Shown in pieces: positions 46,363 through 63,902 of a stretch of 64,000 nucleotides of DNA (position 1 is its first letter; every line of letters begins with the position of its first letter). A program made the translations under genes and the position numbers. Origin of the DNA: Verrucomicrobiota bacterium (GTDB lineage: Bacteria > Verrucomicrobiota > Verrucomicrobiia > Opitutales > Opitutaceae); contig JAUWBF010000008.1 of the NCBI GenBank assembly GCA_030601755.1, positions 1-64,000 of the forward strand, given 5' to 3'. The notes under the pieces were generated by a model. The model ran no database searches, was not told the origin of the DNA, and worked only from the letters and a program-made list of their open reading frames with translations.

Positions 46363-49185
46363 TTAAGGCTTCAGGAAACCATCGGTGTTTCCGCGGTCAC
46401 CCTCGGCGAAACGATCGATCAGGCGGCTGATCTTTTCCGCCGCCTCCCGGGACCTTGCCGCGTCCCCCGACCTCGCGGCGTCCTCGCACTCGATGCAGGC
46501 CGTGCGCAACGCGCCATCGCCCAGCACATCCGCCGTGCTGCACAAGTGATGCGCCGTCCGCGCCAGACCCGGCCAGTCCGCCTCCCCGGCCGCCGACAGG
46601 AGCGCGTCCACCTGCCCGGGAAGCCCTCTCTGCGCGGCCTCGCGTGCCGCCTTGACCTGCTCGCCCGTCAGCAGCCCGCCCGCCAGCAGGCCGGACTCGA
46701 GTCGCAGGCCCGTTCGGCCCCGTCGCAGGGTCGCCGCCAGCGTGGCGAACTCGATGGGTTTGGTGAGAAACTCGTCCATGCCCGCCGCCAGCGCCGCCGC
46801 GCGCTCCGCCTCGCCGGCGTGGGCCGACAGCCCCACGATGAACCATCCCGCGCCGATGCCCGAGCGCAGTCGTCTGGCCACTTCGTCCCCATCCATTCCC
46901 GGCAACGACAAGTCCAGCAGCGCCGCGTCGAAGTCCTCCGCCCTTGCCAGCGTCAACGCCCTCTCGCCGTCCTCCGCCAAGACCGCCGGGCAGCCAAGTT
47001 CCGTCAACCACGCTCCCAGCAAGGTTCGCAGGGCGGGATTGTCCTCCACCACCAGCACCCGCAGACCGGGACACGTCGCGACGCCGGACACGGCGGGGAA
47101 ACCCGCCGTGTCCGGCACGGCCAAGGGCAATGATACGGTCGCCGTGAACACCGCCCCCCGGCCCGGAGTGCTCTCGACTTCCAGCCCGCCGGCCATCGCC
47201 TTGCACAGGCTGCGCGCCAAGGCCAGACCCAGGCCGGTGCCCGCGCCCGGACGCGACCGTTGCAGCCGGGGCAACGGGTCGAAGACGGTCCGGATCTCAT
47301 CTTCCGTCAAACCTGGGCCCGTGTCCGCCACGGCAAAGCTTAACGTGCAGCTCTCGCCATGCGCGCTCGCCCCCGCCCGCAGCTCGACCCCGCCCGTCCG
47401 CGTGAACTTCACCGCGTTGCCCAGCAGATTCACCAGGATCTGCTGCAGGCGCACCGCATCGCCCGAGACTCCGCCCGGCACCCCGGGCTCGACGACGAGC
47501 GAGCAGTCGAGACCTTTGGCCTCGGCCTGCGGTTTGATCGCGGCCATCGCCGAACTCGCCACTTCCGCCGGGGCGAACGGCCGCATCTCGAACCGCAGCC
47601 GCCCCGTCTGCAACGCGCCCAGGTCGAGCAGATCGTTGACCAGACGCAGCAGCTGACGCCCCTGCCGGTCGAGCGTGTCCAGCCATTCCCGCTGGGCCGG
47701 TTCCAGCTTCGCGCGACGCAGCAGGTCCGCATAGCCGAGCACGCCTTGGATCGGGGTGCGCAGTTCATGGCTGACCCGCGCGATCAACTCGGTCTTCGCA
47801 CGGTCGGCCGCCTCTGCCCGGGCCGACTTCAACCGCGCCTCCGCACCGAGTTCCCGTTGTAGCAACAGCACCAGCAGCGAAATCCCGAGCACCCCGCCGA
47901 GGACCATGATGATTGTCGACTGCGCGAGGACCGGGCCCTTGGCCGCCGCCCACGTGTCATAGGTGTAGCGAAACACGATCCATCCCGCCCCCGGCTCGGG
48001 CCAGGGTTGGCAGAAAAGGACATACGACCCCAACTCGTCCTGCATGGCCGAGGAGTCGAACGCCACACGCGACTCGGCGAACTTGGGATCGACCGCCCCG
48101 CCTCTCCGCCACTCGCGCAGCTCCTCGGTAAAGGGCACGTCCGGATGCGTCGCCGCCACCGGCAAGGCCCGCCCCTCCTGCATGCGTGCGAACCAAATCG
48201 CCTCCACCTCGGGATCGGCCAAGACCAGCCTGCGCAACACCGCCTGCAACTCCTCCGGCCGGGCGTCCGCCCTCGCTCCCGACAAAGACACCGCCTCCGC
48301 GGCCAGCCGCGTGCGGATGAAAAACAGACGATCGGCCCGGGCGTTGCCCGCCGTGCTGATGCGCGTGAGCAGGCTGAAGCCGCCCCCGATCGATATGAAG
48401 AAGACCACCGGCACCATCCAGAGCGTATGGGTCAGCCACGGGCGGACGCCCGCTCCCCCCACGTGGCGCCGCATCCAAGCCCACCAGCCAAGCGCCAGCA
48501 CCCACGCGAAGACCGCTCCCGCCAGCATCAAGCCAAACTCGGCCCGCACGTAGAGCGGCAACGTGTTCATCGTCCACCCCTGGAACCGCGCGTGATATTC
48601 CCCGCCCAGCATCTCCAGCGCCACCAGGCCGGCCAACCCGGCCGCCATCAGCCCCAGACTGGCGAACCCACGCCAATCCCCGAGCCTGCGCCGCGAACGC
48701 GCCAGCGCCACCAAGGCGCCGAGCATCGCCAGGCCCGCCGCGCCGGCCAGTGCCGTGTGCGTCCGGACCGCTCCCGGCAGGCCCGCGAGCAGCGTGGCCG
48801 TCACTCCGGCCAAGGCGCAGACCGCGACGACCGCGAGCGCGCCCTTGCGACGCCCCGGCCGCCCATGGACAACCCATGCGAATCGCGCCCCCGCCAACCA
48901 GGCCGGCGTCGACAGCATCAGGTAGGCGATTTGAAACGAGTCGTTGCTCCAACCTCGAAACGCCGTGCCCAGCGACACCAGTCCGATCACCGCCAGTCCC
49001 TTGAGGATCGCGAACCAGCCGAACCACCGCCACCGCCCGTCCACCGGCCCGGTCGAGGCCGACGGCGTCGCCGCCAGCACCAACGCCAGCGTCCCCGCGA
49101 TCAGCAACGCCAGCCCGTGCAGCGTGATCGCGTAGGCGACGCGATTGCCCACGTTGAGGATGACAAGCGACAGGACGGCGGGCAT
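46363..49185 (-). CDS. Hybrid sensor histidine kinase with receiver and Hpt domains
   Basis: This 940-residue protein has about eight N-terminal membrane segments (1-270), then an extracytoplasmic sensor region (about 285-420, LLTRISTAGNARADRLFFIR) and another membrane segment (about 425-445). The HisKA domain follows with the phospho-His in VSHELRTPIQG (about residue 472). The HATPase carries N-box NLLGNAVKFTRTG and G-boxes DTGPGLTE and GTGLGLALARSL. The REC domain is at about 705-820 (Asp in LLDLSLPGMDGDEV, about 758), and the Hpt has phospho-His in ARTAHHLCSTADVLG (about 880). This allows an internal phosphorelay. The nearest candidate output partner is the NarL-type regulator at 52116. 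Confidence 0.94.
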   Translation of the reverse strand: MPAVLSLVILNVGNRVAYAITLHGLALLIAGTLALVLAATPSASTGPVDGRWRWFGWFAILKGLAVIGLVSLGTAFRGWSNDSFQIAYLMLSTPAWLAGARFAWVVHGRPGRRKGALAVVAVCALAGVTATLLAGLPGAVRTHTALAGAAGLAMLGALVALARSRRRLGDWRGFASLGLMAAGLAGLVALEMLGGEYHARFQGWTMNTLPLYVRAEFGLMLAGAVFAWVLALGWWAWMRRHVGGAGVRPWLTHTLWMVPVVFFISIGGGFSLLTRISTAGNARADRLFFIRTRLAAEAVSLSGARADARPEELQAVLRRLVLADPEVEAIWFARMQEGRALPVAATHPDVPFTEELREWRRGGAVDPKFAESRVAFDSSAMQDELGSYVLFCQPWPEPGAGWIVFRYTYDTWAAAKGPVLAQSTIIMVLGGVLGISLLVLLLQRELGAEARLKSARAEAADRAKTELIARVSHELRTPIQGVLGYADLLRRAKLEPAQREWLDTLDRQGRQLLRLVNDLLDLGALQTGRLRFEMRPFAPAEVASSAMAAIKPQAEAKGLDCSLVVEPGVPGGVSGDAVRLQQILVNLLGNAVKFTRTGGVELRAGASAHGESCTLSFAVADTGPGLTEDEIRTVFDPLPRLQRSRPGAGTGLGLALARSLCKAMAGGLEVESTPGRGAVFTATVSLPLAVPDTAGFPAVSGVATCPGLRVLVVEDNPALRTLLGAWLTELGCPAVLAEDGERALTLARAEDFDAALLDLSLPGMDGDEVARRLRSGIGAGWFIVGLSAHAGEAERAAALAAGMDEFLTKPIEFATLAATLRRGRTGLRLESGLLAGGLLTGEQVKAAREAAQRGLPGQVDALLSAAGEADWPGLARTAHHLCSTADVLGDGALRTACIECEDAARSGDAARSREAAEKISRLIDRFAEGDRGNTDGFLKP

Positions 49186-49274: not shown

Positions 49275-50006
49275 TCAGGCCGTCGCCCGCCCCCGCCGCC
49301 GCAGCGCGGCCAAGCCCAGCGCCAAGCCGCCGGCCCACGCGCCCGCCGCCGCCGGCTCGGGCACGGCCGAGACGGTCAGGCTTACGTTGTCGATCAACAG
49401 TGGCACCGCGTTGTTGCCCTCGAAGATGACATAGACGGCCTCCTCCGAAGGCAGCGCGGCGGTGGTGAATGAAAACTCCACGGACCCCACCAGTCCGACC
49501 AATGGGTTCGGGTTGTAATGGACCGTGGTGTGGCTGGTGCCCTCGCTCAGGTCGCCTCCCTCGACGTCCGGCCGATACATCACGTCGGTCGAGGGGAAAC
49601 CCTGCTCGTTGCCGAACACGACGCCGGCAAAGAACGAGCCCGGCCCCTCGTAACCCTGGTAGTCAAAACTCAGGGTATAGGTGGTGTTGCTCCACAACTC
49701 CCCCACGAACTGGTAGATCGCGGTATAGCCGACCATGCGGCCCACCGTGCCGTCCAGCGGCGCCTCCAGAACCACGTCGACCCCGTCCGGCTGGAAAAGG
49801 CCGGCGCTGGTGTTCCCGAATTGCCAAGGCGTCGAGAACGCCGGCGAGAGATATTGTCCGCCGGAGTCGACGCCGAACTGGGCGACCGCGAAGGCGTCGA
49901 ACTCGAAATCGCCGTCGGCCAGCAGTTCGATTTCCTCGGCGCGCCCCGACGTGATCGACGCGACGCTGACGCCGATGAGGATGGAGAGATAACGGTAGGA
50001 TTTCAT
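49275..50006 (-). CDS. PEP-CTERM sorting domain protein
   Basis: From the ATG at 50006 the product has 243 residues. It has an N-terminal signal (YLSILIGVSVASITSGRA), a beta-rich middle resembling a carbohydrate-binding or concanavalin-like sandwich (VGELWSNTTYTLSFDYQG), and a classical PEP-CTERM tail: VPEPAAAGAWAGGLALGLAA, then an Arg cluster. Such tails are processed by exosortase in organisms that make exopolysaccharide. It shares its start context (ACATCATGAAATC) with the next PEP-CTERM gene, which is transcribed first. Confidence 0.85.
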   Translation of the reverse strand: MKSYRYLSILIGVSVASITSGRAEEIELLADGDFEFDAFAVAQFGVDSGGQYLSPAFSTPWQFGNTSAGLFQPDGVDVVLEAPLDGTVGRMVGYTAIYQFVGELWSNTTYTLSFDYQGYEGPGSFFAGVVFGNEQGFPSTDVMYRPDVEGGDLSEGTSHTTVHYNPNPLVGLVGSVEFSFTTAALPSEEAVYVIFEGNNAVPLLIDNVSLTVSAVPEPAAAGAWAGGLALGLAALRRRGRATA

Positions 50007-50043
50007 GATGTGTTGGGTTGGATTTGGCGAATGTCCTGAGCCC

Positions 50044-51906
50044 TCAGGCACGTCGTTTGCGGCGCAGCGTGACCACGCCGAGAGCCACGCCCGCGAGCCA
50101 CACGCCCGCCGAAGCCGGTTCCGGGATGGCTTGGGCGAAGAGGGCCGTGTAGCCGCCCTGCACGGCCAAGCCGAACAGACCTCCGTGGTCCAAGGCGGTG
50201 ACCATTTCCCAATTCTCGCCGTCGCGCACGAAGAGGTCGGCCCCGGAAAGGCGGCCGAAAAGACCGGCGACATTGTCGGTGTAGTCGCCGGCGATCAACA
50301 GGGCGTTGTCATCGGCCAGAAAAATCGAGTCCACCGACAACGCGCCGGATGACTCCAACACGAGTGCATTGCCGGAATTCCCGTCCACCGACCCAATGAA
50401 CACCTCGGTCGCGAGCAGGTGCCCGCGGATGACGAGCCTGTTGTCGTCGCCGCCGGCGCCGCGTCCGACGAACACCGCCTTGTCGGCGGCGGTGACGTTC
50501 GCGGTGTCCCCGGCGGAGAGCAGGACGCTGTTGTTGTCGGTGGCGTCGCCGACGATCCAGTTGACGCGCGAAACGAAGCTAAGGCCCGAGATCACGCGAT
50601 CGGCGTCGCCGGCGTCGAGGGTGGTGAGGGAGCTGACGCTGCCGGTGCGCACCGGACCGGAGCCATTGTGCCCGATCATAAACAAGTCTCCATCGAGGCT
50701 CACCGACGCGCCAAACCGCTGGTTGGCCACGCCGCCCGACGCGACGATCTTGACATCCTCGGTGGCGCTGCCGCTGGCCGTGCCGATTTCGCGGAAAAGA
50801 TAGACCGCGCCGGCGTTGCTCCCCTTGTCATCGTCGCCGTCGGCTCCCACCAACCCGACATTGCCGGACAAGCTCACGGATCGGCCGAACCAATCCCCGT
50901 TGGCGCCGTCGGAAGCCGTGAGTTTGGCCGCCTGCGTGACGGTGCCCGAAGCGGTGTCGAGATTACGGAAAACATAGGCCGCGCCCTTGCGGGTGCTGTC
51001 CGTTCCCGGAGCCCCAACCAAGGCCGTGTTTCCGGAAAGGCTCACCGACATCCCGAAGTGGTCGTAGTTGACACTGTCGGTGGCGATCAGCTTCGCGTTC
51101 TGGGTGACCGTGCCGGTGGCCGTGTGGAGATTGCGGAACAAATAGGCCGCGCCGACACCCCAGCCCCTCGAACTGTCCCCTTCGAAGTAGGCACCGACAA
51201 GGCCGGTGGTGCCCGATTGGCTCAGGGACTTGCCGAAGTGATCGCCGGAGACGCCGTCCGAGGCAGAAAGGATGGCGTTCTGCGTCGCCGAGCCGGTCAC
51301 GCTGTCGAGATTGCGAAAAAGATAAACATACCCCCGGCCGGAGGTTTTCCACTCGGCGGCGACCAATCCGATGTTACCCGCGATGCTCACGGCCGAGCCG
51401 AACTCATCGTCGACTGCGCCGTTCGACGCGGTGAGCTTCGCGTTCTGCGTGACCGTGCCGATAGCCGTGTCGAGATTACGAAAAACGTAGGCGGCGCCGC
51501 GCGCGCTGTTGTCCCCGTTTGCTCCGACAAGGCCGATGCCTCCCGAAATGGAGGTTGACCAACCGAACTGGTCGTTGTCGGCGGCATCGGATGCGGTCAG
51601 CTTTGCCTGTTGGGTGACCGTGCCGGCGGCGGTATCGAGCGAACGGTAGACAAATGCCGCACCTTGGTTGCCGATTCCCACGTAGTTGCCGATCAAACCG
51701 ACGTCAGCCGAGATTCCCACGACGGGAATGGAGTAGGCACCTCCGAAAAGCTCCTCGCTCGACAGCAGCGTTGCCGCGCACGCACACGTGGGCGCAATCA
51801 TCGTCATCAGCGCCAGCGCGGTGAGCGAGTGCCGTCGCAACACGAAAACGGCGGCGGGCGTTTGGGAGTCAGTCGAGAACATTTCGGGGAGTGGCGATGA
51901 TTTCAT
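50044..51906 (-). CDS. PEP-CTERM protein with seven FG-GAP-like propeller repeats
   Basis: From the ATG at 51906 the product has 620 residues: a long signal region (LTALALMTMIAPTCACAATL), then seven tandem units of 54-60 residues. Each unit ends in a variant of GAAYVFRNLDTATGTVTQ and begins LTASDGA..D.FG-SVSLSG-N. Seven such units fit a seven-bladed beta-propeller of the FG-GAP/integrin type. After the propeller comes a beta-helix-like section (about 400-580) and the PEP-CTERM tail IPEPASAGVWLAGVALGVV, then RRKRRA. The upstream frame is rejected as non-coding. It lies 37 bp upstream of the second PEP-CTERM gene and is probably co-transcribed with it. Confidence 0.88.
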   Translation of the reverse strand: MKSSPLPEMFSTDSQTPAAVFVLRRHSLTALALMTMIAPTCACAATLLSSEELFGGAYSIPVVGISADVGLIGNYVGIGNQGAAFVYRSLDTAAGTVTQQAKLTASDAADNDQFGWSTSISGGIGLVGANGDNSARGAAYVFRNLDTAIGTVTQNAKLTASNGAVDDEFGSAVSIAGNIGLVAAEWKTSGRGYVYLFRNLDSVTGSATQNAILSASDGVSGDHFGKSLSQSGTTGLVGAYFEGDSSRGWGVGAAYLFRNLHTATGTVTQNAKLIATDSVNYDHFGMSVSLSGNTALVGAPGTDSTRKGAAYVFRNLDTASGTVTQAAKLTASDGANGDWFGRSVSLSGNVGLVGADGDDDKGSNAGAVYLFREIGTASGSATEDVKIVASGGVANQRFGASVSLDGDLFMIGHNGSGPVRTGSVSSLTTLDAGDADRVISGLSFVSRVNWIVGDATDNNSVLLSAGDTANVTAADKAVFVGRGAGGDDNRLVIRGHLLATEVFIGSVDGNSGNALVLESSGALSVDSIFLADDNALLIAGDYTDNVAGLFGRLSGADLFVRDGENWEMVTALDHGGLFGLAVQGGYTALFAQAIPEPASAGVWLAGVALGVVTLRRKRRA

Positions 51907-52115
51907 GATGTTGAACTCCGGATTCAGGAAGCGCACCGGTCGGCCGCATAGGGGGAGGCTGGTGAAAAATGCGACGCATCTACCCCAACATGATAACAAA
52001 CCCCTCCTCCCGATTGCGCGGGAGGATGCGAAATCCGTCGGGAAAAAATCCCGCATCCGGCGAGCTGTTTGTTTCAGCTCGCCCCGCGCGCACGGCCCGC
52101 GCAAGGTTCGCGTCC

Positions 52116-52766
52116 ATGCCGGACTCCGCCCAGCCCAGCATCGTTCTCGTCGAGGATCACGCTCTCGTGCGCCAGTTGCTCGCCCTGCTGGTGCGCGAAC
52201 ACCTCGACGCCACCCTGGCTGGGGAAGCCGCGACCGTGGCGGAGGGGCTGGCGCTCGCCCGCCGCGAACGACCCGATCTGATGGTGGTCGACTGGGCGCT
52301 TTCCGACGGCAGCGCCGCCGATCTTGTGCGGCCGCTGGCCGCCGAACTTCCCGGCACCCGCTGGCTCATCGTCTCGTCACGCGAGGACGAGTCGGTCCTG
52401 CGCGCCGCGCTGGCCTTGGGCGTGCATGGCTTCGTGTTGAAACAGTCGCCGCTGGAAACCTTTCGCGACGCCATGCGAAAAATCCTCTCCGGCGATTCGT
52501 TTTATTGTCCGCGCAGCTCGCGGCTGCTGATGGAGTCGCTGCGTTCAGAGGCACCCGTGCTCGGCACGAGCCTGACCTTCCGCGAGCGCGAGGTGCTGCG
52601 GGGCATCGCCTCCGGACTCAACCCCAAGGAAATCGCCGCCGCCCACGGCACCAGCCCCAAGACCGTGCAAAACCAGATCAGCCAGCTCAAGGACAAGCTC
52701 GGCATCCGCGAACCCGCCGGATTGGTGAACTACGCGCTCAACCACGGCCTGCTTCGGTCGGAGTAG
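52116..52766 (+). CDS. NarL/LuxR-type response regulator
   Basis: From the ATG at 52116 this is a 216-residue regulator. The receiver domain (about 8-125) has acidic residues in VLVEDHALV and the phospho-acceptor Asp near residue 59 in LMVVDWALSDG; the conserved Lys is in FVLKQSP. The LuxR-type HTH (about 148-210) is LTFREREVLRGIASGLNPKE, then KTVQNQISQLKDKLGI. It is divergent from the PEP-CTERM gene pair, 209 bp apart, and near the hybrid kinase with an Hpt domain. I infer that it may be the kinase's output and may control the PEP-CTERM genes. That link is not shown by sequence. Confidence 0.92.
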   Translation: MPDSAQPSIVLVEDHALVRQLLALLVREHLDATLAGEAATVAEGLALARRERPDLMVVDWALSDGSAADLVRPLAAELPGTRWLIVSSREDESVLRAALALGVHGFVLKQSPLETFRDAMRKILSGDSFYCPRSSRLLMESLRSEAPVLGTSLTFREREVLRGIASGLNPKEIAAAHGTSPKTVQNQISQLKDKLGIREPAGLVNYALNHGLLRSE

Positions 52767-53351: not shown

Positions 53352-54092
53352 ATGGAACGCCCCAAGAAGGTCCGGCGCCACCAGCTCAAGTTCGACATCC
53401 TCGCCCAGCCCGACGACTCGACCTGCGGTCCCACCTGCCTGCACGCCCTCTACCGCTACCACGGCCGCGAGATCCCGCTCGAGACCGTCATCCGCGACGT
53501 GCCCAAGCTCGAGAACGGCGGCACCCTCGGCGTCCACCTCGCCAACGACGCCCTCCGCCGCGGTTTCCGCGCCACCCTCTACACCTACAACCTCCAGGTC
53601 TTCGACCCCACCTGGTTCGCCGGCGACGGACTCTCGCCCGACCAACTCTCCGAAAAACTCGCCGCGCAGGCCCGCGTAAAAACCTCCCACCGCCTCCGCA
53701 GCGCCTGCGCCGCCTACGCCGACTTCCTGCGTCTTGGCGGCGAGGTCCGCTCCGAGGTCCTCTCCGGCCGCCTCATCCGCAAATACCTCAACCGCGACCT
53801 CCCCATCCTCACCGGCCTCAGCTCCACCTACCTCTATCAGGCCATGCGCGAGTTCGGCCCCGACGACGAGGACGACGACATCCGCGGCACCCCCTCCGGT
53901 CACTTCGTCGTGCTCTCCGGCTACGACCGCGAGGATCGCGAGGTCCTCGTCTCCGACCCGCTCGAGTCCAACCCCCACTCGCCCACCCGCCGCTACTCCG
54001 TCGACATCGACCGCGTCATCGCCTCCATCCTCCTCGGCGTGCTCACCTACGACGCCAACCTACTCGTCATCGAACCGGCCGCCATCACGTAG
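53352..54092 (+). CDS. C39-like papain-fold protein, first gene of an amidoligase cassette
   Basis: From the ATG at 53352 this is a 246-residue protein. The N-terminal LAQPDDSTCGPTCLHALYRY carries a peptidase-C39-type catalytic Cys. The expected His and Asp lie in GTPSGHFVVLSGYDRE and VLVSDPLESN. It is probably cytoplasmic, since no signal peptide or transporter domains are present. Proteins of this kind are known near RimK-like ATP-grasp and GCS2 genes, and the next two genes are exactly that pair. It may cleave or transfer the product of the ligases; whether it is a peptidase or an acyl/peptidyl transferase cannot be said. Confidence 0.83.
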   Translation: MERPKKVRRHQLKFDILAQPDDSTCGPTCLHALYRYHGREIPLETVIRDVPKLENGGTLGVHLANDALRRGFRATLYTYNLQVFDPTWFAGDGLSPDQLSEKLAAQARVKTSHRLRSACAAYADFLRLGGEVRSEVLSGRLIRKYLNRDLPILTGLSSTYLYQAMREFGPDDEDDDIRGTPSGHFVVLSGYDREDREVLVSDPLESNPHSPTRRYSVDIDRVIASILLGVLTYDANLLVIEPAAIT

Positions 54093-54175
54093 GGGCCTCG
54101 CTTGCGAGGCCCGTTAAACGTCCGCGCACCCCGCCGCATTCCCACGCTCCGCGGGCGTCGCAAGCGACGCCCCTA
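54089..54175. repeat. GTAG-footed inverted hairpin pair (REP/BIME-like)
   Basis: The hairpin GGGCCTCGC-tt-GCGAGGCCC follows GTAG (54089-54112). The hairpin GGGCGTCGC-aa-GCGACGCCC then precedes CTAC (54153-54175). The two hairpins point in opposite directions with GTAG at both outer edges. It overlaps the stop of the C39-like gene by four bases. Confidence 0.88.
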
Positions 54176-54205
54176 CTTTCCTCTCTCTCCCATCATCCCT
54201 TTCCC

Positions 54206-55687
54206 ATGCTCTCCCTCATCGTCGTCAACAACCCCGACCGCTGGCCGTTCGACATCGACATGCCCGGCGTCGAGGTCGTCTCCGCCCGCAGCTACCTCGT
54301 CGACGCGCGCTACACCGACCTGCGCCACGTCCGCGTCTACAACCTCTGCCGCGACTACCGCTACCAGTCGCTCGGCTACTACGTCTCCCTCCTCGCCGAG
54401 GCCCGCGGCCACCGCCCCCAGCCCAGCATCTCCACCATCCAGGACCTCAAGTCCCCCGTCGTCTCGCGCATCCTCTCCGAGGACATCGACGACCTCATCC
54501 AAAAATCCCTCGCCCCCATCAAGGGCGACCACTTCACCCTCAGCATCTACTTCTCGCGCAACCTCGCCAAGTCCCACGACCGCCTCAGCCAGCAACTCTA
54601 CAACCAGTTCCAGGCCCCCCTCCTGCGCGCCCACTTCGTCAAGCGCGAGGAAGACCGTTGGGAACTCCAGGACATCTCGCCCATCTCCGCCTCCGAGATC
54701 CCGGAAAACCACCGCCCCTTCGTCACCCAGGTCGCCCGCGAGTTTCTCTCCGGCCGCCGCCCTGCCGCCGCGAGGAAAACCCCGCCCCGCTACCACCTCG
54801 CCATCCTCTACGACTCCGACGAGGGCCACAAACCCTCCAACGAAAAGGCCATCCAGAAATTCATCCGCGCCGCCGAGGAATTCGACGTAGAGGCCGAGAT
54901 CATCACCCGCGACGACTACGCGCGCATCGCCGAGTTCGACGCCCTCTTCATCCGCCAGACCACCTCCGTCAACCACTTCACCTACCGCTTCGCCAGCCGC
55001 GCCGAGGCCGAGGGACTCGTCGTCATGGACGACCCCAAGTCCATCCTCCGCTGCACCAACAAAGTCTACCTCGCCGAACTCCTCGACCGGCACGACATCC
55101 TCGCCCCGAAAACCGTCATCGTCCACCGCGACAACCTCGACGAGGTCTGCGGCCAGCTCGGCTTCCCCGTCATCCTCAAGCAGCCCGACTCCTCCTTCTC
55201 GCAGGGCGTCACCAAGGCCTCCACCCCTGAGGAATTCGCCGCCCAGGCCGAGGCCCTCCTGGAGAAGTCCGAACTCTTCCTCGCGCAGGCCTTCCTCCAG
55301 ACCGACTTCGACTGGCGCATCGGCGTGCTCGATAAAAAACCGTTGTATGCGTGCAAATACTACATGGCGCGCAAGCACTGGCAGATCATCGCCAAGCAGG
55401 ACGACGGCGACACCGACTACGGCCGCGTCGAGGCCGTGCCCGTCGAGCTCGTGCCGCAGCACGTCATGCGCACCGCGGTCAAGGCCGCCTCGCTCATCGG
55501 CGACGGACTCTACGGCGTCGACCTCAAGCAGGACGGCCGCCACTGCTACGTCATCGAGGTCAACGACAACCCGAGCATCGATGCCGGCTTCGAGGACTCC
55601 CTGCTCAAGGACAGCCTTTACGAACGCATAATAGAGTCCTTCGTCCGCCGCCTCGAACGCATCAAGGAACGCCGCGACGACGACTGA
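54206..55687 (+). CDS. RimK-like ATP-grasp ligase with N-terminal RLAN domain
   Basis: From the ATG at 54206 the product has 493 residues; the frame is open far upstream but that sequence overlaps other genes. The N-terminal RLAN-like domain (about 1-190, MLSLIVVNNPDRWPFDIDMP) precedes a RimK-type ATP-grasp domain (about 205-480). Its ATP-binding Lys and loop are FPVILKQPDSSFSQGV, and the metal site is YGVDLKQDGRHCYVIEVNDN. ATP-grasp enzymes form amide or ester bonds from an acyl-phosphate intermediate. Combined with the adjacent C39-like and GCS2 genes, this suggests ligation of amino acids to a peptide, protein or small molecule. GTAG palindromes lie on both sides. Confidence 0.88.
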   Translation: MLSLIVVNNPDRWPFDIDMPGVEVVSARSYLVDARYTDLRHVRVYNLCRDYRYQSLGYYVSLLAEARGHRPQPSISTIQDLKSPVVSRILSEDIDDLIQKSLAPIKGDHFTLSIYFSRNLAKSHDRLSQQLYNQFQAPLLRAHFVKREEDRWELQDISPISASEIPENHRPFVTQVAREFLSGRRPAAARKTPPRYHLAILYDSDEGHKPSNEKAIQKFIRAAEEFDVEAEIITRDDYARIAEFDALFIRQTTSVNHFTYRFASRAEAEGLVVMDDPKSILRCTNKVYLAELLDRHDILAPKTVIVHRDNLDEVCGQLGFPVILKQPDSSFSQGVTKASTPEEFAAQAEALLEKSELFLAQAFLQTDFDWRIGVLDKKPLYACKYYMARKHWQIIAKQDDGDTDYGRVEAVPVELVPQHVMRTAVKAASLIGDGLYGVDLKQDGRHCYVIEVNDNPSIDAGFEDSLLKDSLYERIIESFVRRLERIKERRDDD

Positions 55688-55699
55688 GCGCGTTTACCC

Positions 55700-55789
55700 G
55701 TAGGGGCCGCGCTTGCGCGGCCCGTTCAACGCGAACCTCACCCGCACCGTTCCATCTTGTCCAACAGGCCTCGCAAGCGAGGCCCCTAC
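55700..55789. repeat. GTAG-footed inverted hairpin pair (REP/BIME-like)
   Basis: The hairpin GGGCCGCGC-tt-GCGCGGCCC follows GTAG (55700-55723). GGCCTCGC-aa-GCGAGGCC then precedes the foot CCTAC (55767-55789). It has the same layout as 54089-54175 with changed but still paired stem bases. Confidence 0.88.
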
Positions 55790-55799
55790 ACAAAACCGC

Positions 55800-57032
55800 A
55801 TGCCCTTCCCCCTCTTCTCCTGTCACGGCGTCGAACTCGAATACATGATCGTCGACCGCGCCACGCTCGCCGTGCGCCCCTGGAGCGACCGCGTGCTCGT
55901 CGACGCCGTCAGCGGCGCGCCCGTCTCCGACATCGAGCGCGGCGACATCACCTGGTCCAACGAGCTCACCGCGCACGTCATCGAGCTCAAGACCACCGAG
56001 CCCATCGCCGAACTCGGCGACATCTCCGCGTCCTTCGCCCGCGAGGTCCGCGAGCTCAACGCCCGCCTCGCCCCGCACGGCTGCCGCCTGCTGCCCACCG
56101 CCATGCACCCCCTCATGCGCCCCGACGAGGCCCGCCTCTGGACGCACGACAACAACGACATTTACGAGGCCTTCGACCGCATCTTCGACTGTCGCGGCCA
56201 CGGCTGGTCCAACCTCCAGAGCGTGCACATCAACCTCCCCTTCGACGGCGACGCCGAGTTCGCCCGCCTGCACGCCGCCATCCGTCTCGTCCTCCCCATC
56301 CTGCCCGCGCTCGCCGCCTCCTCGCCCATCCAGGAAGGCCGCATCACCGGCTGGCCCGACAACCGCCTCGCCCACTACCGCGTCAACTCCGCCAAACTCC
56401 CCGCGCTCTGCGGCCGCGTCATCCCCGAGCCCGTGTATTCGCACGCCGACTACAAGCGCGTGATCTTCGATCCCATCCGCGTGCAACTCGCCCCGCACGA
56501 CCCCGACGGCCTTCTCCTCGCCGAGTTCAGCAACTCCCGCGGCGCCATCGCCCGCTTCGACCGCGGCAGCATCGAGATCCGCCTGCTCGACATCCAGGAA
56601 TGCCCCGCCGCCGACCTCGCCGTCGTCAAGACAATCGTCGCCCTCCTCAAAGAGCTCGCCGCCGAGACGCACCTCGACCTCGCGTCCCAGCAAGCTGTCA
56701 CCGTCGACCCGCTCGCGCGCCTCTTCAACGCCTGCGTCGAGCAAGCCGACGCCGCCATCGTCGACGACCCCGTGCTTCTGCGCGCCCTCGGCTGCGCCGA
56801 CCTCGTGTCCCCCGCCGCGCACAACGTCTGGCGCCGGATCATCGCCCGCCTCAACCCCCTCCGCGACGCCGCCGAGTCCGAGCGCGCCGCGCAAAAAGCC
56901 TACCTCGACCACGGCACGCTCGCCCGCCGCATCGTGTCGGCCCTCCCCGCCGAGCCGACGCCTGCCGACCTCCAGTCCCTCTACACCCGCCTCGCCGACG
57001 GCCTGGAGGCGAACACGCCCTTCGTTCGTTAA
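55800..57032 (+). CDS. Glutamate-cysteine ligase family (GCS2-like) enzyme
   Basis: From the ATG at 55800 the product has 410 residues. The start, FPLFSCHGVELEYMIVDRAT, is the typical GCS2 N-terminus (G-x-E-x-E, metal and glutamate binding). ELTAHVIELKTTEPIAELGD and GWSNLQSVHINLPF also fit GCS2/YbdK-type glutamate-amine ligases. It probably forms a gamma-glutamyl-type or similar amide with ATP. In this setting it may supply or initiate the chain that the neighbouring RimK-like ligase extends. It is the third gene of the cassette, and the palindrome at 55700-55789 lies just before it. Confidence 0.88.
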   Translation: MPFPLFSCHGVELEYMIVDRATLAVRPWSDRVLVDAVSGAPVSDIERGDITWSNELTAHVIELKTTEPIAELGDISASFAREVRELNARLAPHGCRLLPTAMHPLMRPDEARLWTHDNNDIYEAFDRIFDCRGHGWSNLQSVHINLPFDGDAEFARLHAAIRLVLPILPALAASSPIQEGRITGWPDNRLAHYRVNSAKLPALCGRVIPEPVYSHADYKRVIFDPIRVQLAPHDPDGLLLAEFSNSRGAIARFDRGSIEIRLLDIQECPAADLAVVKTIVALLKELAAETHLDLASQQAVTVDPLARLFNACVEQADAAIVDDPVLLRALGCADLVSPAAHNVWRRIIARLNPLRDAAESERAAQKAYLDHGTLARRIVSALPAEPTPADLQSLYTRLADGLEANTPFVR

Positions 57033-57177
57033 AGACAAAGCGCCCTCACGTCCGACGTGGCGGCGACGGTAACGTCGCTCGCCATGTCCGCGATGATCAA
57101 CCGAAGGGCGTCTCTGCGGGTGGTCGCAGGCCAATGGCGTGCGGCCTTGGGGATGCCCGCGTTTGCCGCTTGGAATC

Positions 57178-57269
57178 GTAGGGCCTTACCTTGGTGAGGC
57201 CGTGCGCCGCGAGTCCGTGAACAGGGTCTGCTTGCGCCCAACGCGGCCGGACACGAGGTCCGGCCCTAC
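57178..57269. repeat. GTAG-footed inverted hairpin pair (REP/BIME-like)
   Basis: GTAGGGCCTTACC-tt-GGTGAGGCC (one non-Watson-Crick pair) opens the unit. GGCCGGAC-acgag-GTCCGGCC followed by CTAC closes it. The outer feet are GTAG and CTAC, as in 54089 and 55700. Confidence 0.75.
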
Positions 57270-57430
57270 ACTACGGACCCAACTCTGCTTGAGATGCTTG
57301 AGCAGCCCGCGGCCGACACTCCCGGCGCCCATGAAATGAAGCCGGAGCGCCCTTCGGTCCGTCGCTTCCATTTTGGCGTATTCACAGCCGCTCAGCCGTT
57401 CCCGGGCAATGCCCTGCGGACTGCGAAAAC

Positions 57431-57466: not shown

Positions 57467-57614
57467 AGTGTATTTTGCTCATTACCAGCAGGTAATACTT
57501 AAAATTAACTGTTTTTTCCATTTGACGGAGGAGGGTTGCCGGTTCCTGAAGGTCGACGTAATTCGCGCCATGTCCGTTTGGGCATGGTCCCTTTATTCCA
57601 GCCCCCTTTTTCCC

Positions 57615-60600
57615 ATGATTACGACCATCCGTCGGGTGTGTATGTCGGCCTGGCAAGCGGCTGCGTGCGCTGTTGTTCTTTTCGCCGGTGAGCGCCTGTC
57701 GGCGGCCCTGCCCGCGGGCTGGAGCTCGACCGACATCGGCACGGTGGCCACGGCCGGAAGCGCCGATCACGACTCCGGCACCGACGTCTACACGGTCGAG
57801 GGTTCCGGCTCCGGCGACATCGGCGGTTCGTCGGATAATTTCCACTACGCCCACCGCGCGCTGTCCGGCGACGGCTACATCGTGGCGCGCGTCGATTCGC
57901 TCACCAACACCAACGGCTGGGCCAAGGCCGGCGTGATGATCCGCGAGAGCCTCGACGCCAATTCCCGGCACGCGCTCATGATGGTCACGCCGTCCTCCGG
58001 CACCGGCATCAAGTGGCGCAGTTCCACCGGCGGGTCCAGTTCGCAAATCATGGTTTCCGGCGCGGCTCCGCGTTGGTTGAAGCTCGAGCGCCGCGGCAAG
58101 ATGGTGACCGGTTTCGAGTCCTCCGACGGCGTCAACTGGAACGTCGTCCAGCGCGTGGCGGTCGCCATGGGCACGGACGTCTACGCCGGCTTGGTCGCCT
58201 GCAGCCGCAGCTCGGGCCTGACCACGGTTTCGGCCGACGGAGTCGAGGTCGGCGCGCTCTCCACCGAGCTGGCGCTGCCCTGGCCCTGGGACGAATCCAC
58301 CGTCGGCACGCCCACCGACGCGGGCGTCGCGCTCCACGACGGCAGCTACGTGCTCTCCAACCTCGGCGCCGACATCGCCGGCACCGCCGATCGCTTCAAG
58401 TTTGTTTCCCAGACCCTCACCGGCAACGGCACGCTCACCATGCGGGTCTCCTCGGTCGTCTCCTCGGACAACTCCAGCCGCTTCGGCCTCATGTTCCGCG
58501 AGAGCCAGGACGCCGACGCCCGCCACGTGATGCTCGGCGTCACCACCTCCAAGGCCCTCTTCTTCTCCAGCCGCCGCACGACCGGCGGCAACACCACCTC
58601 GGTGCAGTCCTCCGTCACGGTCACCGTGCCCGCGTGGATTCGCCTCCAGCGCGACGGCAACGTCTTCAAGGCCTACACCTCCGCCGACGGCGCGACCTGG
58701 TCGCTCCACGGCACCGAGACCCTCGCGCTCGGCGTGACCCTCCACGTCGGCGTGGCCTACTCCAACCGCCATTCCTCCACCTGGGCCATCGGCGTCGGCG
58801 ACGACCTCGGCCTCGTCACCCCGCTCGACACCGACGGCAACGGCCTCTCCGACGACTGGGAAACCAACTTCTTCTCCACCACCGGCGTCGATCCCATGGC
58901 CGATCCCGACGGCGACGGCCTCACCAACGCGCAGGAGTGGGAACTGGGCAACGACCCCCTCGTCTTCAACCTCGAGGGCCAGCGCCCGCTGCTCGAGCTT
59001 GTCGGCGGCGACAACCAGACCGGCGTCGCCGGCACCCAGCTCCCGCTGCCCCTCGCCGTGCGCGTGAAGGACTCCCTCAGCGACGACCCCGTGGCCAACA
59101 TCCCCGTGCAGTTCCGCGTGCTGCAAGGCGAGGGCACCCTCGGCGCGACCCTGCCCGGCGACCCCGTGCTCAACCTCTCCTCGGACACCGAGGGCCTCGT
59201 GCAAAGCGCCTTCCAGCTGCCCGCCACCGGCGGCGACCAGATCGTCGGCGTGGGCGTCGGCGGCCGCCAGCAGGCCAGCGTCGTCGTCTTCACGCTCAAG
59301 TCCCTCGTCGGCGCCGCCCCCGGCCTGTTCGACGTGACCAACCTCGGCCAGCCCGCGCTGCCCGGCCGCGTGACGTATTCCGAAGGTGAATACACGCTCG
59401 AGGGCGCGACCACCTCGGCCTTCACCGGCGGCTCCGACACCGGCACCTACGCCTGGCGCGACTTCACCGGCGACGGCTTCATCCTCGCCCGTGTCGACCA
59501 CGTCGACGCCACCGACAACGCCGCGCAGGCCGGCGTGATGATCCGCGAGAGCCTCGACGCCGATTCACGCTACGTCTCCATGCTGCTGACCGAGGCCAAC
59601 GGCGTCGTCTTCCAATGGCGCGAGACCGTCGGCGGCTCCACCAAGACCAGCTATCAATCCGGCGTCACCGGCCCCGTCTGGCTGCTCCTGCGCCGCAGCG
59701 GCGACACCTACACCGGTTTTTATTCCACCGACGGGCAGACTTGGACGCTCCGGTCCACCCGCACCCAGGCCATGGGCTCGACCATCAAGATCGGCCTCGC
59801 GCACGGCACCCGCACTTCCACCTACACCTCGGCCACCGTCGACGGTCTGCGCCTCGGCGAGTTTGCCGAGACTCCGTGGCAGGGCTCCGACATCGGCCTG
59901 CCCCGCGCCACCGCCGTCAACGACTTCACCGAGGACGGCGTGCTCATGCGCGCCGGCGGCACCAACATCGGTGGCACGGCCGACACGTTCCATTTCCTGC
60001 ACCAGCCGCTCGCCGGCGACGGCCGCCTCATCGTGCGCCTCGCCGACCTGCAGTCCACCCACACCGGCGCCGACAGCGGCGTGATGATCCGCGAAAGCCT
60101 CGATCAAAACGCCCGCCACGTCTCCCTGCTGCTCTCGCCGGCGACGGGCCTGACGCTCGTCAATCGCGTTTATACCGGCGGCTCCACCAGCACCTTCGGC
60201 ACGACCAACCCGGCCGCCGAGGCCCCGCAATGGCTGCGCCTCGACCGCATCGGCGGCAACGTCCACGGCTACACCTCCGCCGACGGCGTGAGCTGGACGC
60301 TCCTCGGCTCGAAGTCCTTCGCGTTCGCCGGACCCGCGTCCATCGGTCTCGCCGGCGGCAACTACGACTACACCGCCCACTCGCTGGCCAGCTTTGACAA
60401 CCTTGCCCTCGACCTCGGCGACGGCCCGCTCGGCTGGAACGGCGCCTACTACGACGGCGGCAACTTCGATCAACTCAAGCTCGACCGTCGCGACACCGAG
60501 CTCGACTTCACCTGGCCCGTCGGCGTCGCCCCGACCTCCGGCGTGTCCGCCGATAGCTACTCGATCCGCTGGCAGGGCGACGTGATTCCCGCGACCACGG

Positions 60601-63600
60601 GCTCGCACACGTTCACGTTGCTCTCGCAAGGCTCGGCCCGAGTCACCGTCAACGGACAGGTGCTGATCAACCGCTGGTCCGCGCACACGCTCGGTGAAGC
60701 CTCGGGCGCCATCACGCTGCCGGCCGGCGAACCCGCCCGTGTCGTGGTCGAATACGCCAACACCCCGGGAGTTGACGCCCGCGTTCAGCTGCGCTGGTCG
60801 GCCGCCGGTCTGAGCGACGAGGTCGTGCCCTTCGGCTCCGTGAGGCCGATCGACCGCGACGACGACGGTTTGCCCGATGCCTGGGAAATCACCCACGGCC
60901 TCAACCCCGATGACGCCGCCGACGGCGCGCTCGACCCCGATGGCGACGGCCTCGGCAACCGCATGGAATACGAGTTCGGCGGCAACCCCTTCCTCGTCGA
61001 TAATCGTCTGTCCGGCGTGGTGACCGTCGAGACCTGGACGGTGGCCGGCGAAGTCGTGCGCAACCTGACGAGCTTGGATCGTTTTGTGGCCTCCAACCCG
61101 AACTCCAAAATCTTCGCCACCGAGCTGCGCTTCCCGACCAACGGGCAGAATGGCTACGGACGCCGCGTGCGCGGCTACATCGTGCCGCCCGTCACCGGTG
61201 ACTATCGTTTCCACGTCGCCGCCAATGACACCGCCGAGTTCTGGCTCAGCCCCGACGACAATCCCTTCGCCCGCGTCAAGCGCGCCCGCGTCGGCAAGTT
61301 GTCCACGGACGATCAGGACTATGGGGATCGCGTCGAGCAGCGCTCGGTCGTCCTCACCCTGCAGGCTGGCGAGCCCTATTACTTCGAATTGCTGCACAAG
61401 CAGAACTCCGGCGTCTCGCACGCGACCGTCGCCTGGACCGGCCCCGGCATGAGCGAACCGCAGGTGATCGCCGGTGCCGCGCTGGAGAGCTACGCCCCCG
61501 TGGCCGGCGACCAGGACGACGACGGTCTGCCCGACGCCTGGCAGGCGACCCACGGTCTCGACGACCTGAACTTCACCTCGGCCAGCCGCGGTGCCTACGG
61601 CGATGCCGACGGCGACCGGTTGCCCAATCTCCTCGAATATCAGCACGACCTCGATCCGATCGTCGCGGACACCGATGGCGATACCTACCAGGATGTGCTC
61701 GAGGTGCTCGTTTCCGCGAACCCGCTCGACATCAATACCGACTTGGATCTCACGCCGTGGCAACTCGGTGACGTCGGCGCCACCATCACGCCCGCTCTCG
61801 CCAATCGGGTCGACACGGACGCCTTCCGTCTTGCCGGCACCGGCTCCGGTTTGGCCATCCACAAGTCCGACTCCTTCCGCTACCTTTATCACGAGGTGAC
61901 CGGCGATTTCGAGCTGACCGCCCGCATGGTGCGACCCGCCGACAACGTCGTCGGCCTCGGCGGTGTTTCCATCCGCTCCAGCCTCGACGACCACGCCGTC
62001 TCGTTGTCCCTCCTGCAGGACACCGAGGGCTACAATCGCGGCTACTACCGTGTGGTCGAGGACGGTCCGATCATGGAACTCCCGGCCTTTACCCCAGCCT
62101 TCGCCAGCGAGGCGGCCGGCCTGGCCGGTTATTGGTTCCGGATTCGCCGCACCGGCGATCTGGTGCGCCTCTACTGCTCCGCCGACGGCGACCAATGGCT
62201 GCTCGCCTACGCCAAGGTGCTGCCGCTCGGCGAGGACTGCCTCGTCGGCTTCGCGACCGCGTCCAACATGGGGCCGTATACCTCCTACAGCGACATCGAC
62301 CTGCCCGCCCGCGAGTTCGCCGACGTCACGCTGGACCTCGATTACGCCGATCCCGAGGCGCTCGACACCGTGCCCGAGGACGCCACGGTCACGCCCGTCG
62401 CCACCATCGGCGGCGGCGACGGCGTCACCGTCAAGGGCCAGTGGACCGTCGACGCCGACGGCATCGTCTCGCAGACCTTCACCGGCACGCTCGACTACGC
62501 CTTCACGGTGCCCGCCGACGGACTCTACCGGTTGACCTTCCTGGCCAACTCGCCCTCCAACCCGACCGGCAACACCCTCTTCCCGCTGCAAATCTCCATC
62601 GACGGCCAGGTCATCGGCCGCGTCGACCTCTTCATGGAGGTCGGTCAGGACGGCCTCGCCCGCGTCGTCACCCCGTGGCTGCTGGCCGGCGCGCACACCG
62701 TGCGGGTCTTCTACGACAACACCCTCAGCTACCACCCGCTGCGCATCCGCTCGCTCACCGTCGAGGCGCTCGGCGGCGTGGACGCCGACAGCGACGGCGT
62801 GGCCGATTGGATCGAGGGACGCCTGGCGGCGCTCAACACCATCGACACCGACAACGGCCTCTACGTTTCGCCGGCCAGCCTCCACGGCCGGTCGCGCTAC
62901 CGCTCGATGTTCACGCTTACCGCCGACACGCAGCCGGTGCAGACGCAGCCCGCCCCGGGCTACGGCTGGTATGCCGACGTGGCGCTCAGTGAGACCGCCC
63001 CCGTCGAAATCGTCGGCGACTTCGAGAACGGCGGCTCCGTGCAGGGCGTATTTTTAAATTGGATACCGCTTAACCTGCTCGACCTGCCCGTGGAATATGG
63101 ACTCACCGCCTCCATGCGCGTGCGCCTCGGCGACAGCCTGCGTCTCACCGCGCATCCGTCCGGTGCCAGCGGCGGCACCGCCGACATCACGGTCACGCTG
63201 CCCGGCGAGACGCCGGTCACGCTCGCGCTCACCGACCCCGTCGGCCAGCCCGTTGTCCACGCCTTCGAGGAGCCCGGCGTCTACACCGTCACCGCCACCT
63301 ACACCGACGCCGCGAGCAACCAGACTGTCGCCGACGCCTTCACCGTCGAGGTGATCGAGGCCGCCTTTGCCGCCGATCCCACCGTCGGCCTCAACAACTA
63401 TCCGGTGACCTGGGACAACCCGCTGATCCCGAGTTCGGTCCTCCTTGAGGTCGACCAAGGCGTGCTGCTCGTGGCTCAGGGCGGGCTGCCCGCCGGCGGC
63501 ACCAGCTACTCGGTCACCAGCGGCAACGTGGATGACAGCTATGTCGTCGCCCGCCTCGGCGAGGACGGCCCGATTTTCGGGCACGCCACCATCCACACCG

Positions 63601-63902
63601 TGCGCACGGCCACGTTGCCCGACACCGCCATGGACACGTTGCAGGTCTATCCCGACGGTAGCCGCCTGATCGGTGTGCCCATCGTCATCAATCGCCTGAC
63701 CGACGACACCCGCGTCGAGGTCGAGATCTTTGTGCAGGGCGTCACCTTCGAGGACGGCACCACGGTGAAGATTCTCACCAGGGCCGACTTCGACGAATAC
63801 GGCCGCGTCTACCTGAAGTTCATCTACCCGGAGGGCGTCGACGGCTCCATCTGCCACCGCGTGCACGTCTACGAAGGCGAGAGCTACCTCGGCACCTTCT
63901 GA
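57615..63902 (+). CDS. Giant secreted multidomain protein (lectin-like, PA14, calcium-binding repeats)
   Basis: From the ATG at 57615 (MITTIRRVCMSAW, then a hydrophobic signal AACAVVLFAGERLSAA) the product has 2,095 residues; upstream ATGs would precede the signal peptide. Domains in rough order:
- lectin-like modules 1 and 2 (about 35-215, 220-400), with motifs such as AGVMIRESLDANSRHA;
- TSP3-like calcium repeat (404-455, DPDGDGLTNAQEWELGND);
- Big_1-type Ig fold (460-565);
- lectin-like modules 3 and 4 (570-750, 752-935);
- PA14 (938-1080, GWNGAYYDGGNFDQLKLD);
- TSP3-like, PA14-like (1140-1295) and TSP3-like again (to about 1380);
- lectin-like module 5 (to about 1572);
- carbohydrate-binding-like domain (1590-1720);
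- Ig-like/C-terminal part.
There is no PEP-CTERM tail. I infer an exported polysaccharide- or surface-binding protein. Confidence 0.88.
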   Translation: MITTIRRVCMSAWQAAACAVVLFAGERLSAALPAGWSSTDIGTVATAGSADHDSGTDVYTVEGSGSGDIGGSSDNFHYAHRALSGDGYIVARVDSLTNTNGWAKAGVMIRESLDANSRHALMMVTPSSGTGIKWRSSTGGSSSQIMVSGAAPRWLKLERRGKMVTGFESSDGVNWNVVQRVAVAMGTDVYAGLVACSRSSGLTTVSADGVEVGALSTELALPWPWDESTVGTPTDAGVALHDGSYVLSNLGADIAGTADRFKFVSQTLTGNGTLTMRVSSVVSSDNSSRFGLMFRESQDADARHVMLGVTTSKALFFSSRRTTGGNTTSVQSSVTVTVPAWIRLQRDGNVFKAYTSADGATWSLHGTETLALGVTLHVGVAYSNRHSSTWAIGVGDDLGLVTPLDTDGNGLSDDWETNFFSTTGVDPMADPDGDGLTNAQEWELGNDPLVFNLEGQRPLLELVGGDNQTGVAGTQLPLPLAVRVKDSLSDDPVANIPVQFRVLQGEGTLGATLPGDPVLNLSSDTEGLVQSAFQLPATGGDQIVGVGVGGRQQASVVVFTLKSLVGAAPGLFDVTNLGQPALPGRVTYSEGEYTLEGATTSAFTGGSDTGTYAWRDFTGDGFILARVDHVDATDNAAQAGVMIRESLDADSRYVSMLLTEANGVVFQWRETVGGSTKTSYQSGVTGPVWLLLRRSGDTYTGFYSTDGQTWTLRSTRTQAMGSTIKIGLAHGTRTSTYTSATVDGLRLGEFAETPWQGSDIGLPRATAVNDFTEDGVLMRAGGTNIGGTADTFHFLHQPLAGDGRLIVRLADLQSTHTGADSGVMIRESLDQNARHVSLLLSPATGLTLVNRVYTGGSTSTFGTTNPAAEAPQWLRLDRIGGNVHGYTSADGVSWTLLGSKSFAFAGPASIGLAGGNYDYTAHSLASFDNLALDLGDGPLGWNGAYYDGGNFDQLKLDRRDTELDFTWPVGVAPTSGVSADSYSIRWQGDVIPATTGSHTFTLLSQGSARVTVNGQVLINRWSAHTLGEASGAITLPAGEPARVVVEYANTPGVDARVQLRWSAAGLSDEVVPFGSVRPIDRDDDGLPDAWEITHGLNPDDAADGALDPDGDGLGNRMEYEFGGNPFLVDNRLSGVVTVETWTVAGEVVRNLTSLDRFVASNPNSKIFATELRFPTNGQNGYGRRVRGYIVPPVTGDYRFHVAANDTAEFWLSPDDNPFARVKRARVGKLSTDDQDYGDRVEQRSVVLTLQAGEPYYFELLHKQNSGVSHATVAWTGPGMSEPQVIAGAALESYAPVAGDQDDDGLPDAWQATHGLDDLNFTSASRGAYGDADGDRLPNLLEYQHDLDPIVADTDGDTYQDVLEVLVSANPLDINTDLDLTPWQLGDVGATITPALANRVDTDAFRLAGTGSGLAIHKSDSFRYLYHEVTGDFELTARMVRPADNVVGLGGVSIRSSLDDHAVSLSLLQDTEGYNRGYYRVVEDGPIMELPAFTPAFASEAAGLAGYWFRIRRTGDLVRLYCSADGDQWLLAYAKVLPLGEDCLVGFATASNMGPYTSYSDIDLPAREFADVTLDLDYADPEALDTVPEDATVTPVATIGGGDGVTVKGQWTVDADGIVSQTFTGTLDYAFTVPADGLYRLTFLANSPSNPTGNTLFPLQISIDGQVIGRVDLFMEVGQDGLARVVTPWLLAGAHTVRVFYDNTLSYHPLRIRSLTVEALGGVDADSDGVADWIEGRLAALNTIDTDNGLYVSPASLHGRSRYRSMFTLTADTQPVQTQPAPGYGWYADVALSETAPVEIVGDFENGGSVQGVFLNWIPLNLLDLPVEYGLTASMRVRLGDSLRLTAHPSGASGGTADITVTLPGETPVTLALTDPVGQPVVHAFEEPGVYTVTATYTDAASNQTVADAFTVEVIEAAFAADPTVGLNNYPVTWDNPLIPSSVLLEVDQGVLLVAQGGLPAGGTSYSVTSGNVDDSYVVARLGEDGPIFGHATIHTVRTATLPDTAMDTLQVYPDGSRLIGVPIVINRLTDDTRVEVEIFVQGVTFEDGTTVKILTRADFDEYGRVYLKFIYPEGVDGSICHRVHVYEGESYLGTF

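Follow-up and report, generated by a model that had tools for sequence, protein, structure and literature searches.

The C39-RLAN-GCS2 locus and its three proteins

Our analysis is concerned with a three-gene cassette on contig JAUWBF010000008.1 (assembly GCA_030601755.1) of a Verrucomicrobiota bacterium, located in a stretch of 64,000 nucleotides (positions 1 to 64,000 of the forward strand) that we refer to as the window; the cassette encodes a C39-like papain-fold enzyme, an ATP-grasp ligase with an RLAN domain, and a GCS2-family ligase (Table 1). A previous interpretation, made from the sequence alone (the sequence-only reading), had described three consecutive plus-strand genes of these families, and this description is borne out by the Pfam matches and by open reading frames (ORFs) with exact coordinates, from the ATG at 53352 to the stop codon at 57030-57032. 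The loss of catalytic residues in the ligases, which that reading had named as grounds for giving it up, is not seen; the active-site residues are invariant in all three alignments.

Table 1. Features of the cassette region, in window coordinates
Feature	Coordinates	Strand	Evidence
C39-like papain-fold cysteine hydrolase/transferase, 246 aa	53352..54092	+	Pfam PF13529/PF03412, invariant residues, AF2 model
BIME-like REP palindrome pair, C39/RLAN gap; outside the enzyme system	54089..54176	no strand	
RLAN + RimK-like ATP-grasp ligase, 493 aa	54206..55687	+	Pfam PF14401/PF08443, invariant residues, AF2 model
BIME-like REP palindrome pair, RLAN/GCS2 gap; outside the enzyme system	55700..55789	no strand	
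GCS2-family carboxylate-amine ligase, 410 aa	55800..57032	+	Pfam PF04107, invariant residues

AF2, AlphaFold2; BIME, bacterial interspersed mosaic element; REP, repetitive extragenic palindrome.

The Pfam matches of all three proteins exceed the gathering scores, and the named NCBIfam models that they match are reached below cut-off throughout; for this reason, none of the window's cassette proteins can be assigned to an enzyme already characterised. The nearest relatives of the GCS2 protein, among the best 80 of 526 GCS2 relatives, belong to Opitutaceae UBA3033 and Cephaloticoccus (67%), and the RLAN protein has 79% identity to its Cephaloticoccus counterpart (locus L076); judged by these relatives, the host resembles Opitutaceae.

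The C39-like protein matches Peptidase_C39_2 (PF13529; E=1.2e-11, 45.8 bits against a cut-off of 24) and Peptidase_C39 (PF03412; 3.8e-7), and its catalytic triad, C25-H184-D202, is invariant together with the oxyanion residue Q19 in an alignment of 12 C39 proteins. No N-terminal hydrophobic stretch was seen by eye, so that the enzyme is probably cytosolic. The best folds matched by its AF2 model (mean predicted local distance difference test score, pLDDT, 86) are tied between the phytochelatin synthase Alr0975 (Z 16.7, 163 residues) and the C39 peptidase PCAT1 (Z 16.6), with the PCAT1 and ComA peptidases at Z about 16.5 over 136 residues; by sequence, the C39 proteases ComA and PCAT1 are nearest, and the phytochelatin synthase family was not matched in the Pfam search. 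The papain fold and the C-H-D triad are common to phytochelatin synthase, the C39 peptidases and the cassette enzyme; unlike the former two, the latter is a stand-alone protein of about 246 aa with a helical insert and no transporter fusion, and its sequence identity to the best fold matches is only 11-24%.

In the second protein, the RLAN domain (PF14401; 5.7e-46, 156 bits against a cut-off of 25) occupies residues 27-174, followed by a RimK-type ATP-grasp domain (PF08443; 2.5e-9, 37.4 bits against a cut-off of 21) at about residues 196-485, where K286, K325, R371, D439, E451 and N453 are invariant across an alignment of 20 RLAN enzymes. The AF2 model has a mean pLDDT of 86, and the comparison of its residues 193-490 with known folds places LysX, ArgX and RimK nearest (Z 27-28 over about 270 residues), ahead of glutathione synthetase (Z 22.6). 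With these three enzymes the protein shares the ATP-grasp fold and the catalytic residues; it differs from them by about 190 additional N-terminal residues that include the RLAN domain, and no gene resembling LysW, the carrier of LysX and ArgX, is seen at the cassette locus. Membership of the RimK subfamily, or of the synthetase of N-acetylglutaminylglutamine amide (NAGGN), was considered and rejected: the RimK model TIGR00768 is reached at 72.8 bits against a cut-off of 143.4, and the NAGGN synthetase model TIGR03103 is not among the NCBIfam matches of the window protein. The matches to the MptN and CofF models are below cut-off. The similarity of the C39 and ATP-grasp models to known folds does not fix the reaction that either enzyme catalyses.

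The GCS2 protein matches PF04107 (2e-36, 126 bits against a cut-off of 21), and residues E12/E14, N54-E55, H59, E62, R189, R247, R252, E259 and R261 are invariant across an alignment of 11 GCS2 proteins. Its distant relatives include YbdK (1r8g) and the plant glutamate-cysteine ligase (2gwc). It has the superfamily and the catalytic residues in common with glutamate-cysteine ligase 2, YbdK and EgtA, but it stays under all NCBIfam cut-offs (57.8 against 176.4 bits for YbdK) and forms a clade of its own that is tied to RLAN; the assignment as a glutamate-cysteine ligase proper (GshA/EgtA) was rejected, at 32.8 against 249 bits for TIGR02048 and 25.7 against 370.8 bits for EgtA.

Conservation of the cassette and exchange of its partners

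One genome per species was scanned with the GCS2 alignment alone, and the best 80 of the 526 confirmed relatives were examined as loci. RLAN adjoins GCS2 in 77 of them, the remaining three (one on a short contig) being devoid of RLAN, and in 63/80 the genes follow the order C39, RLAN, GCS2 on a common strand, often overlapping or a few bases apart; since these loci were picked by GCS2 alone, the recurrence of this order is not due to chance. The cassette is spread over hundreds of genomes in Bacteroidota, Planctomycetota, Verrucomicrobiota, Proteobacteria and Acidobacteriota, and Pontibacter and Salegentibacter strains that are named and in culture are among its hosts. When each part was searched for separately in 288 Verrucomicrobiota genomes, RLAN was found in 37, C39 in 12 and GCS2 in 10, and all GCS2-positive (10/10) and C39-positive (12/12) genomes fall within the RLAN-positive ones (hypergeometric 4e-10 and 3e-12, phylogeny ignored); among 198 Bacteroidota genomes, the 16 that contain GCS2 are all nested in the 23 that contain RLAN, with the two genes adjacent (hypergeometric 2e-18, phylogeny ignored). 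GCS2 of the cassette clade depends on RLAN. As an observation on a single locus, the L251 cassette (Bacteroidota) has a pair of overlapping frames in place of one intact frame for GCS2 and likewise for RLAN, owing to frameshifts or sequencing errors.

The clustering of the flanking ORFs across loci revealed no carrier ORF, transporter or amino-acid biosynthesis genes associated with the cassette. In search of a precursor peptide, short ORFs (20-110 aa) lying up to 2 kb from the cassette were clustered, and none is conserved across phyla; such short ORFs are common to only two closely related gammaproteobacterial contigs. A gene for a DUF155 (RMND1-like) protein lies near the cassette in eight loci of Bacteroidota and Gammaproteobacteria, upstream in L103, L116, L122, L131, L135 and L153 and 4.7 kb downstream in L108 and L117; together with other flanking families, it was rejected as a member, as its occurrence looks like lineage synteny.

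One further neighbour is conserved: an ORF of about 230 aa directly 3' of GCS2, identified through Pfam as an N-formylglutamate amidohydrolase (FGase), which occurs in 53/80 loci with a median gap of about 6 bp. It is absent from the window and, by homologue search, from the rest of the host genome, and none was found genome-wide in several other hosts that lack it at the locus. A whole flavobacterial lineage has RLAN, GCS2 and FGase but not C39, with no C39 of the cassette type elsewhere in seven genomes (in the genome of L101, one weak and short C39 match lies in a 741-codon frame); the window and its Opitutaceae relatives have C39 but no FGase. It follows that neither hydrolase is indispensable. 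At least one of the two is present in the majority of loci, but L092, L098 and L115 are exceptions, and for this reason we do not claim a strict complementarity.

RLAN also occurs without GCS2, and we refer to the loci that combine RLAN with GCS2 as type A, and to those that have a RimI-like GNAT acetyltransferase in place of GCS2 as type B. In type B loci, fusions of GNAT with a DUF3335 C39-like domain are frequent, and GNAT is sometimes fused to RLAN. It lies near RLAN in 38/40 loci of Pseudomonadota, 27 of these with the DUF3335 C39-like domain, and it adjoins RLAN in 20/27 Verrucomicrobiota loci outside the cassette; in type A loci, there are just two GNAT-like ORFs, 678 and 4925 bases from RLAN, the only one within 1 kb (L094) being on the opposite strand. 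In a tree of 93 RLAN proteins, built by a quick method with the Shimodaira-Hasegawa-like approximate likelihood ratio test (SH-aLRT) as its only support, a minimum of two changes between the GCS2 and GNAT states is needed, and a group of eight Verrucomicrobiota GNAT loci, behind starred branches, is nested in the GCS2 clade. GCS2 and GNAT are mutually exclusive partners of RLAN and look like interchangeable amine-capping modules; as one takes the place of the other while the RLAN ligase and the papain-fold enzyme stay the same, the acylation of an amine is the role suggested for both.

Six Bacteroidota loci, as well as L066, L067 and L231, have GNAT, RLAN and ATP-grasp fused in single ORFs of 649-689 codons, where RimI is the nearest match of the GNAT half and RimK that of the ligase half. 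The fusions of L066, L067, L231 and L245-L250 span three phyla and have a domain order that resembles NAGGN synthetase, of which they are not family members; for L067, this identity was rejected, given that TIGR03103 is reached at 25 bits against 569, through the GNAT part only, among the matches listed.

These results have a mixed bearing on the sequence-only reading. The co-occurrence of the three genes in other genomes, which it had made a condition, is upheld by the ordered loci and by the nested genomes, and no transporter or precursor-peptide gene was found beside the cassette, as it had claimed. Its probable amide-bond pathway of unknown product also stands; its trio of genes, in turn, has proved incomplete, as FGase is the usual fourth member, C39 is absent from a flavobacterial lineage and GNAT replaces GCS2 elsewhere, so that the trio falls short of the complete set and is also not strictly the smallest one.

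REP palindromes and flanking genes

Both gaps between the cassette genes of the window are filled by inverted pairs of BIME-like REP palindromes, of the form GTAGGGGC..CGCTTGCG..GCCC, and the first REP overlaps the C39 gene, whose TAG stop codon (54090-54092) is contained in the REP start motif GTAGGGG. The two pairs fold strongly (z -7.4 and -7.0), and the single-palindrome pattern has 62 matches in the host genome, against 0 for the reversed control pattern. In most of the other genomes checked, the gaps between the cassette genes are short or absent, which indicates that the REP insertions are local and without bearing on the function of the cassette. Genes for Y1_Tnp proteins (PF01797), a REP-associated transposase type, are found in the host at C125 75175-75504, C72 42-365 and C22 5706-5891, the first being on the contig of the cassette, 11 kb beyond the window; they may serve to mobilise the REP elements. 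Just 3' of GCS2, at 57176-57278, is a third inverted pair, of diverged sequence (GTAGGGCC...GGCCCTAC), whose fold beats 199/200 shuffles.

Close upstream of the cassette are located a NarL-type response regulator (51969-52766, plus strand) and a hybrid histidine kinase with an HPt domain (46363-49185, minus strand). Two adjacent predicted secreted proteins on the minus strand (49275-50273 and 50044-52104) have PEP-CTERM-like tails (VPEPAAAGAWAGG..., IPEPASAGVWLAG...), the second of them with repeated FG-GAP-like units. Directly after the cassette, a 2144-aa open frame (57468-63902, plus strand) apparently encodes a giant, repetitive secreted protein.

Candidate reactions of the cassette

We tentatively favour the explanation that the cassette serves the cytosolic synthesis and turnover of a short N-capped peptide, of non-ribosomal origin and with glutamate or a comparable acidic residue in it. 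In favour of such a peptide are the complete active sites of the papain-fold enzyme and of both ATP-dependent ligases, the tie of GCS2 to RLAN, the position of FGase directly 3' of GCS2 in 53/80 loci, the exclusion between GCS2 and GNAT, the GNAT-RLAN fusions, the failure to find a carrier ORF, precursor ORF or transporter, and the nearness of the ATP-grasp fold to the amino-acid ligases LysX, ArgX and RimK. The families, active sites, linkage, exchange, fusions and folds are observed; the chemistry of each step, the nature of the product as a small peptide and the use of glutamate as a substrate are inferred. In the proposed scheme, GCS2 would use ATP to activate the gamma-carboxylate of glutamate and join it to an amine, forming a gamma-glutamyl cap; the RLAN ATP-grasp enzyme would form an acyl-phosphate on the C-terminal carboxylate of the peptide and add an amino acid, as RimK and LysX do; the C39-like enzyme would form a thioester with the peptide, followed by trimming or transfer, in the manner of phytochelatin synthase or the C39 peptidases. 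The hydrolysis of N-acyl-glutamate is the known chemistry of the FGase family, and FGase, where present, may hydrolyse an R-CO-NH-Glu bond and allow the product to be recycled. In type B loci, an acyl cap that GNAT takes from acyl-CoA would replace the step of GCS2, by a logic similar to that of NAGGN synthetase, in which GNAT and ATP-grasp are combined.

A precedent is the NAGGN pathway. The ligase half of its synthetase, Ngg, is an ATP-grasp domain. Ngg, whose operon includes a peptidase, produces N-acetylglutaminylglutamine, from which the osmolyte NAGGN is formed (PMC8070244); the pathway (asnO-ngg-peptidase; PA3459-PA3461) arrives at a short, capped cytosolic peptide through GNAT, ATP-grasp and peptidase, with the same logic as the type B fusions. 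It differs from the cassette in its asparagine-synthase-like amidotransferase, which was not found among the conserved cassette neighbours, and in its use of GNAT, where the type A cassette uses GCS2. It is the exchange between GCS2 and GNAT, along with the precedent of GNAT and ATP-grasp in one protein, that leads us to prefer a small capped peptide to the modification of a protein terminus, a thiol pathway or a ribosomal peptide.

Several observations weigh against a capped peptide. RimK, LysX and ArgX, which act on protein C-termini, outscore the small-peptide ligase glutathione synthetase as relatives of the ATP-grasp domain; the type B GNAT is most similar to RimI, a protein N-acetyltransferase; amino-acid biosynthesis genes do not cluster with the cassette among the flanking ORFs; C39 and FGase are each sometimes missing, so that neither hydrolase is obligatory, and loci L098 and L115 have neither of them despite the presence of RLAN and GCS2.

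The first two of these observations are at the base of the alternative that fares best, which comes close to the capped peptide and which we regard as possible but on balance somewhat less likely: the RLAN ATP-grasp enzyme would add one or more amino acids to the C-terminus of a cellular protein, which GCS2 or the RimI-like GNAT would also modify at an amine, and C39 or FGase would remove the modification. RimK modifies ribosomal protein S6, and LysX and ArgX modify the carrier LysW; the additional RLAN domain could bind a protein partner, and genes of a small-molecule pathway are not seen in the neighbourhood. This alternative is opposed by the finding that in no lineage is the cassette linked to a conserved gene for a target or a carrier, by the RimK family also glutamylating small cofactors (the MptN and CofF models match, below cut-off), and by the product of the fused GNAT and ATP-grasp of Ngg, which is a small dipeptide (PMC8070244).

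A thiol pathway similar to those of glutathione and phytochelatin, in which gamma-Glu-Cys would be formed by GCS2 and extended to a tripeptide by the ATP-grasp enzyme, with the C39-like enzyme acting on this tripeptide like a phytochelatin synthase, seems to us distinctly improbable. The distant relationship of GCS2 to the plant glutamate-cysteine ligase and the position of Alr0975, which cleaves glutathione, among the best C39 folds are in its favour, but the C39 proteases are equal in fold and nearest in sequence, the ATP-grasp domain is nearer to RimK and LysX (Z 28) than to glutathione synthetase, GCS2 is under the GshA and EgtA cut-offs, and the presence of GNAT in the place of GCS2 in type B loci removes the gamma-Glu-Cys step. 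A system of the ribosomally synthesised and post-translationally modified peptide (RiPP) type, where C39 would remove the leader of a ribosomal precursor modified by the ligases, is suggested by the family of double-glycine leader peptidases to which C39 belongs, with ComA and PCAT1 nearest by sequence, but was already disfavoured and is hardly credible with no conserved short ORF found within 2 kb in diverse loci, neither a C39-ABC transporter fusion nor a transporter, a C39 that is dispensable in flavobacteria and an ATP-grasp domain whose nearest folds are RimK and LysX.

With regard to earlier work, Iyer and colleagues, in a survey of amidoligases from 2009, reportedly described the association of RLAN, GCS2, GNAT and papain-like domains. 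That survey (Mol Biosyst 5:1636) is cited in PMC10318531 in connection with fusions of GNAT and DUF3335 that might act as peptide ligases; its neighbourhoods would comprise the same domain families and the same predicted type of peptide-ligation operon as the cassette. The search of the open literature yielded no paper on RLAN or on the cassette, and no product of the latter. Existing knowledge may be extended by the FGase member, by the exclusive exchange of GCS2 and GNAT, and by the fusions of GNAT with RLAN, and priority is not claimed.

In a broader and, in our estimate, doubtful interpretation, the cassette would be a widespread reversible system of peptide tagging or protein capping in many bacterial phyla, independent of Pup and of the ubiquitin-like systems, where two unrelated ligases attach residues and two unrelated hydrolases remove them, and where GCS2, adding gamma-glutamyl, and GNAT, adding acyl groups, can be exchanged. 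The exchange of GNAT and GCS2, together with FGase, leads to concrete chemical predictions, namely an amine-capping step and a step of N-acyl-glutamate hydrolysis; a cassette that is so conserved across phyla should yield a physiologically important molecule or modification.

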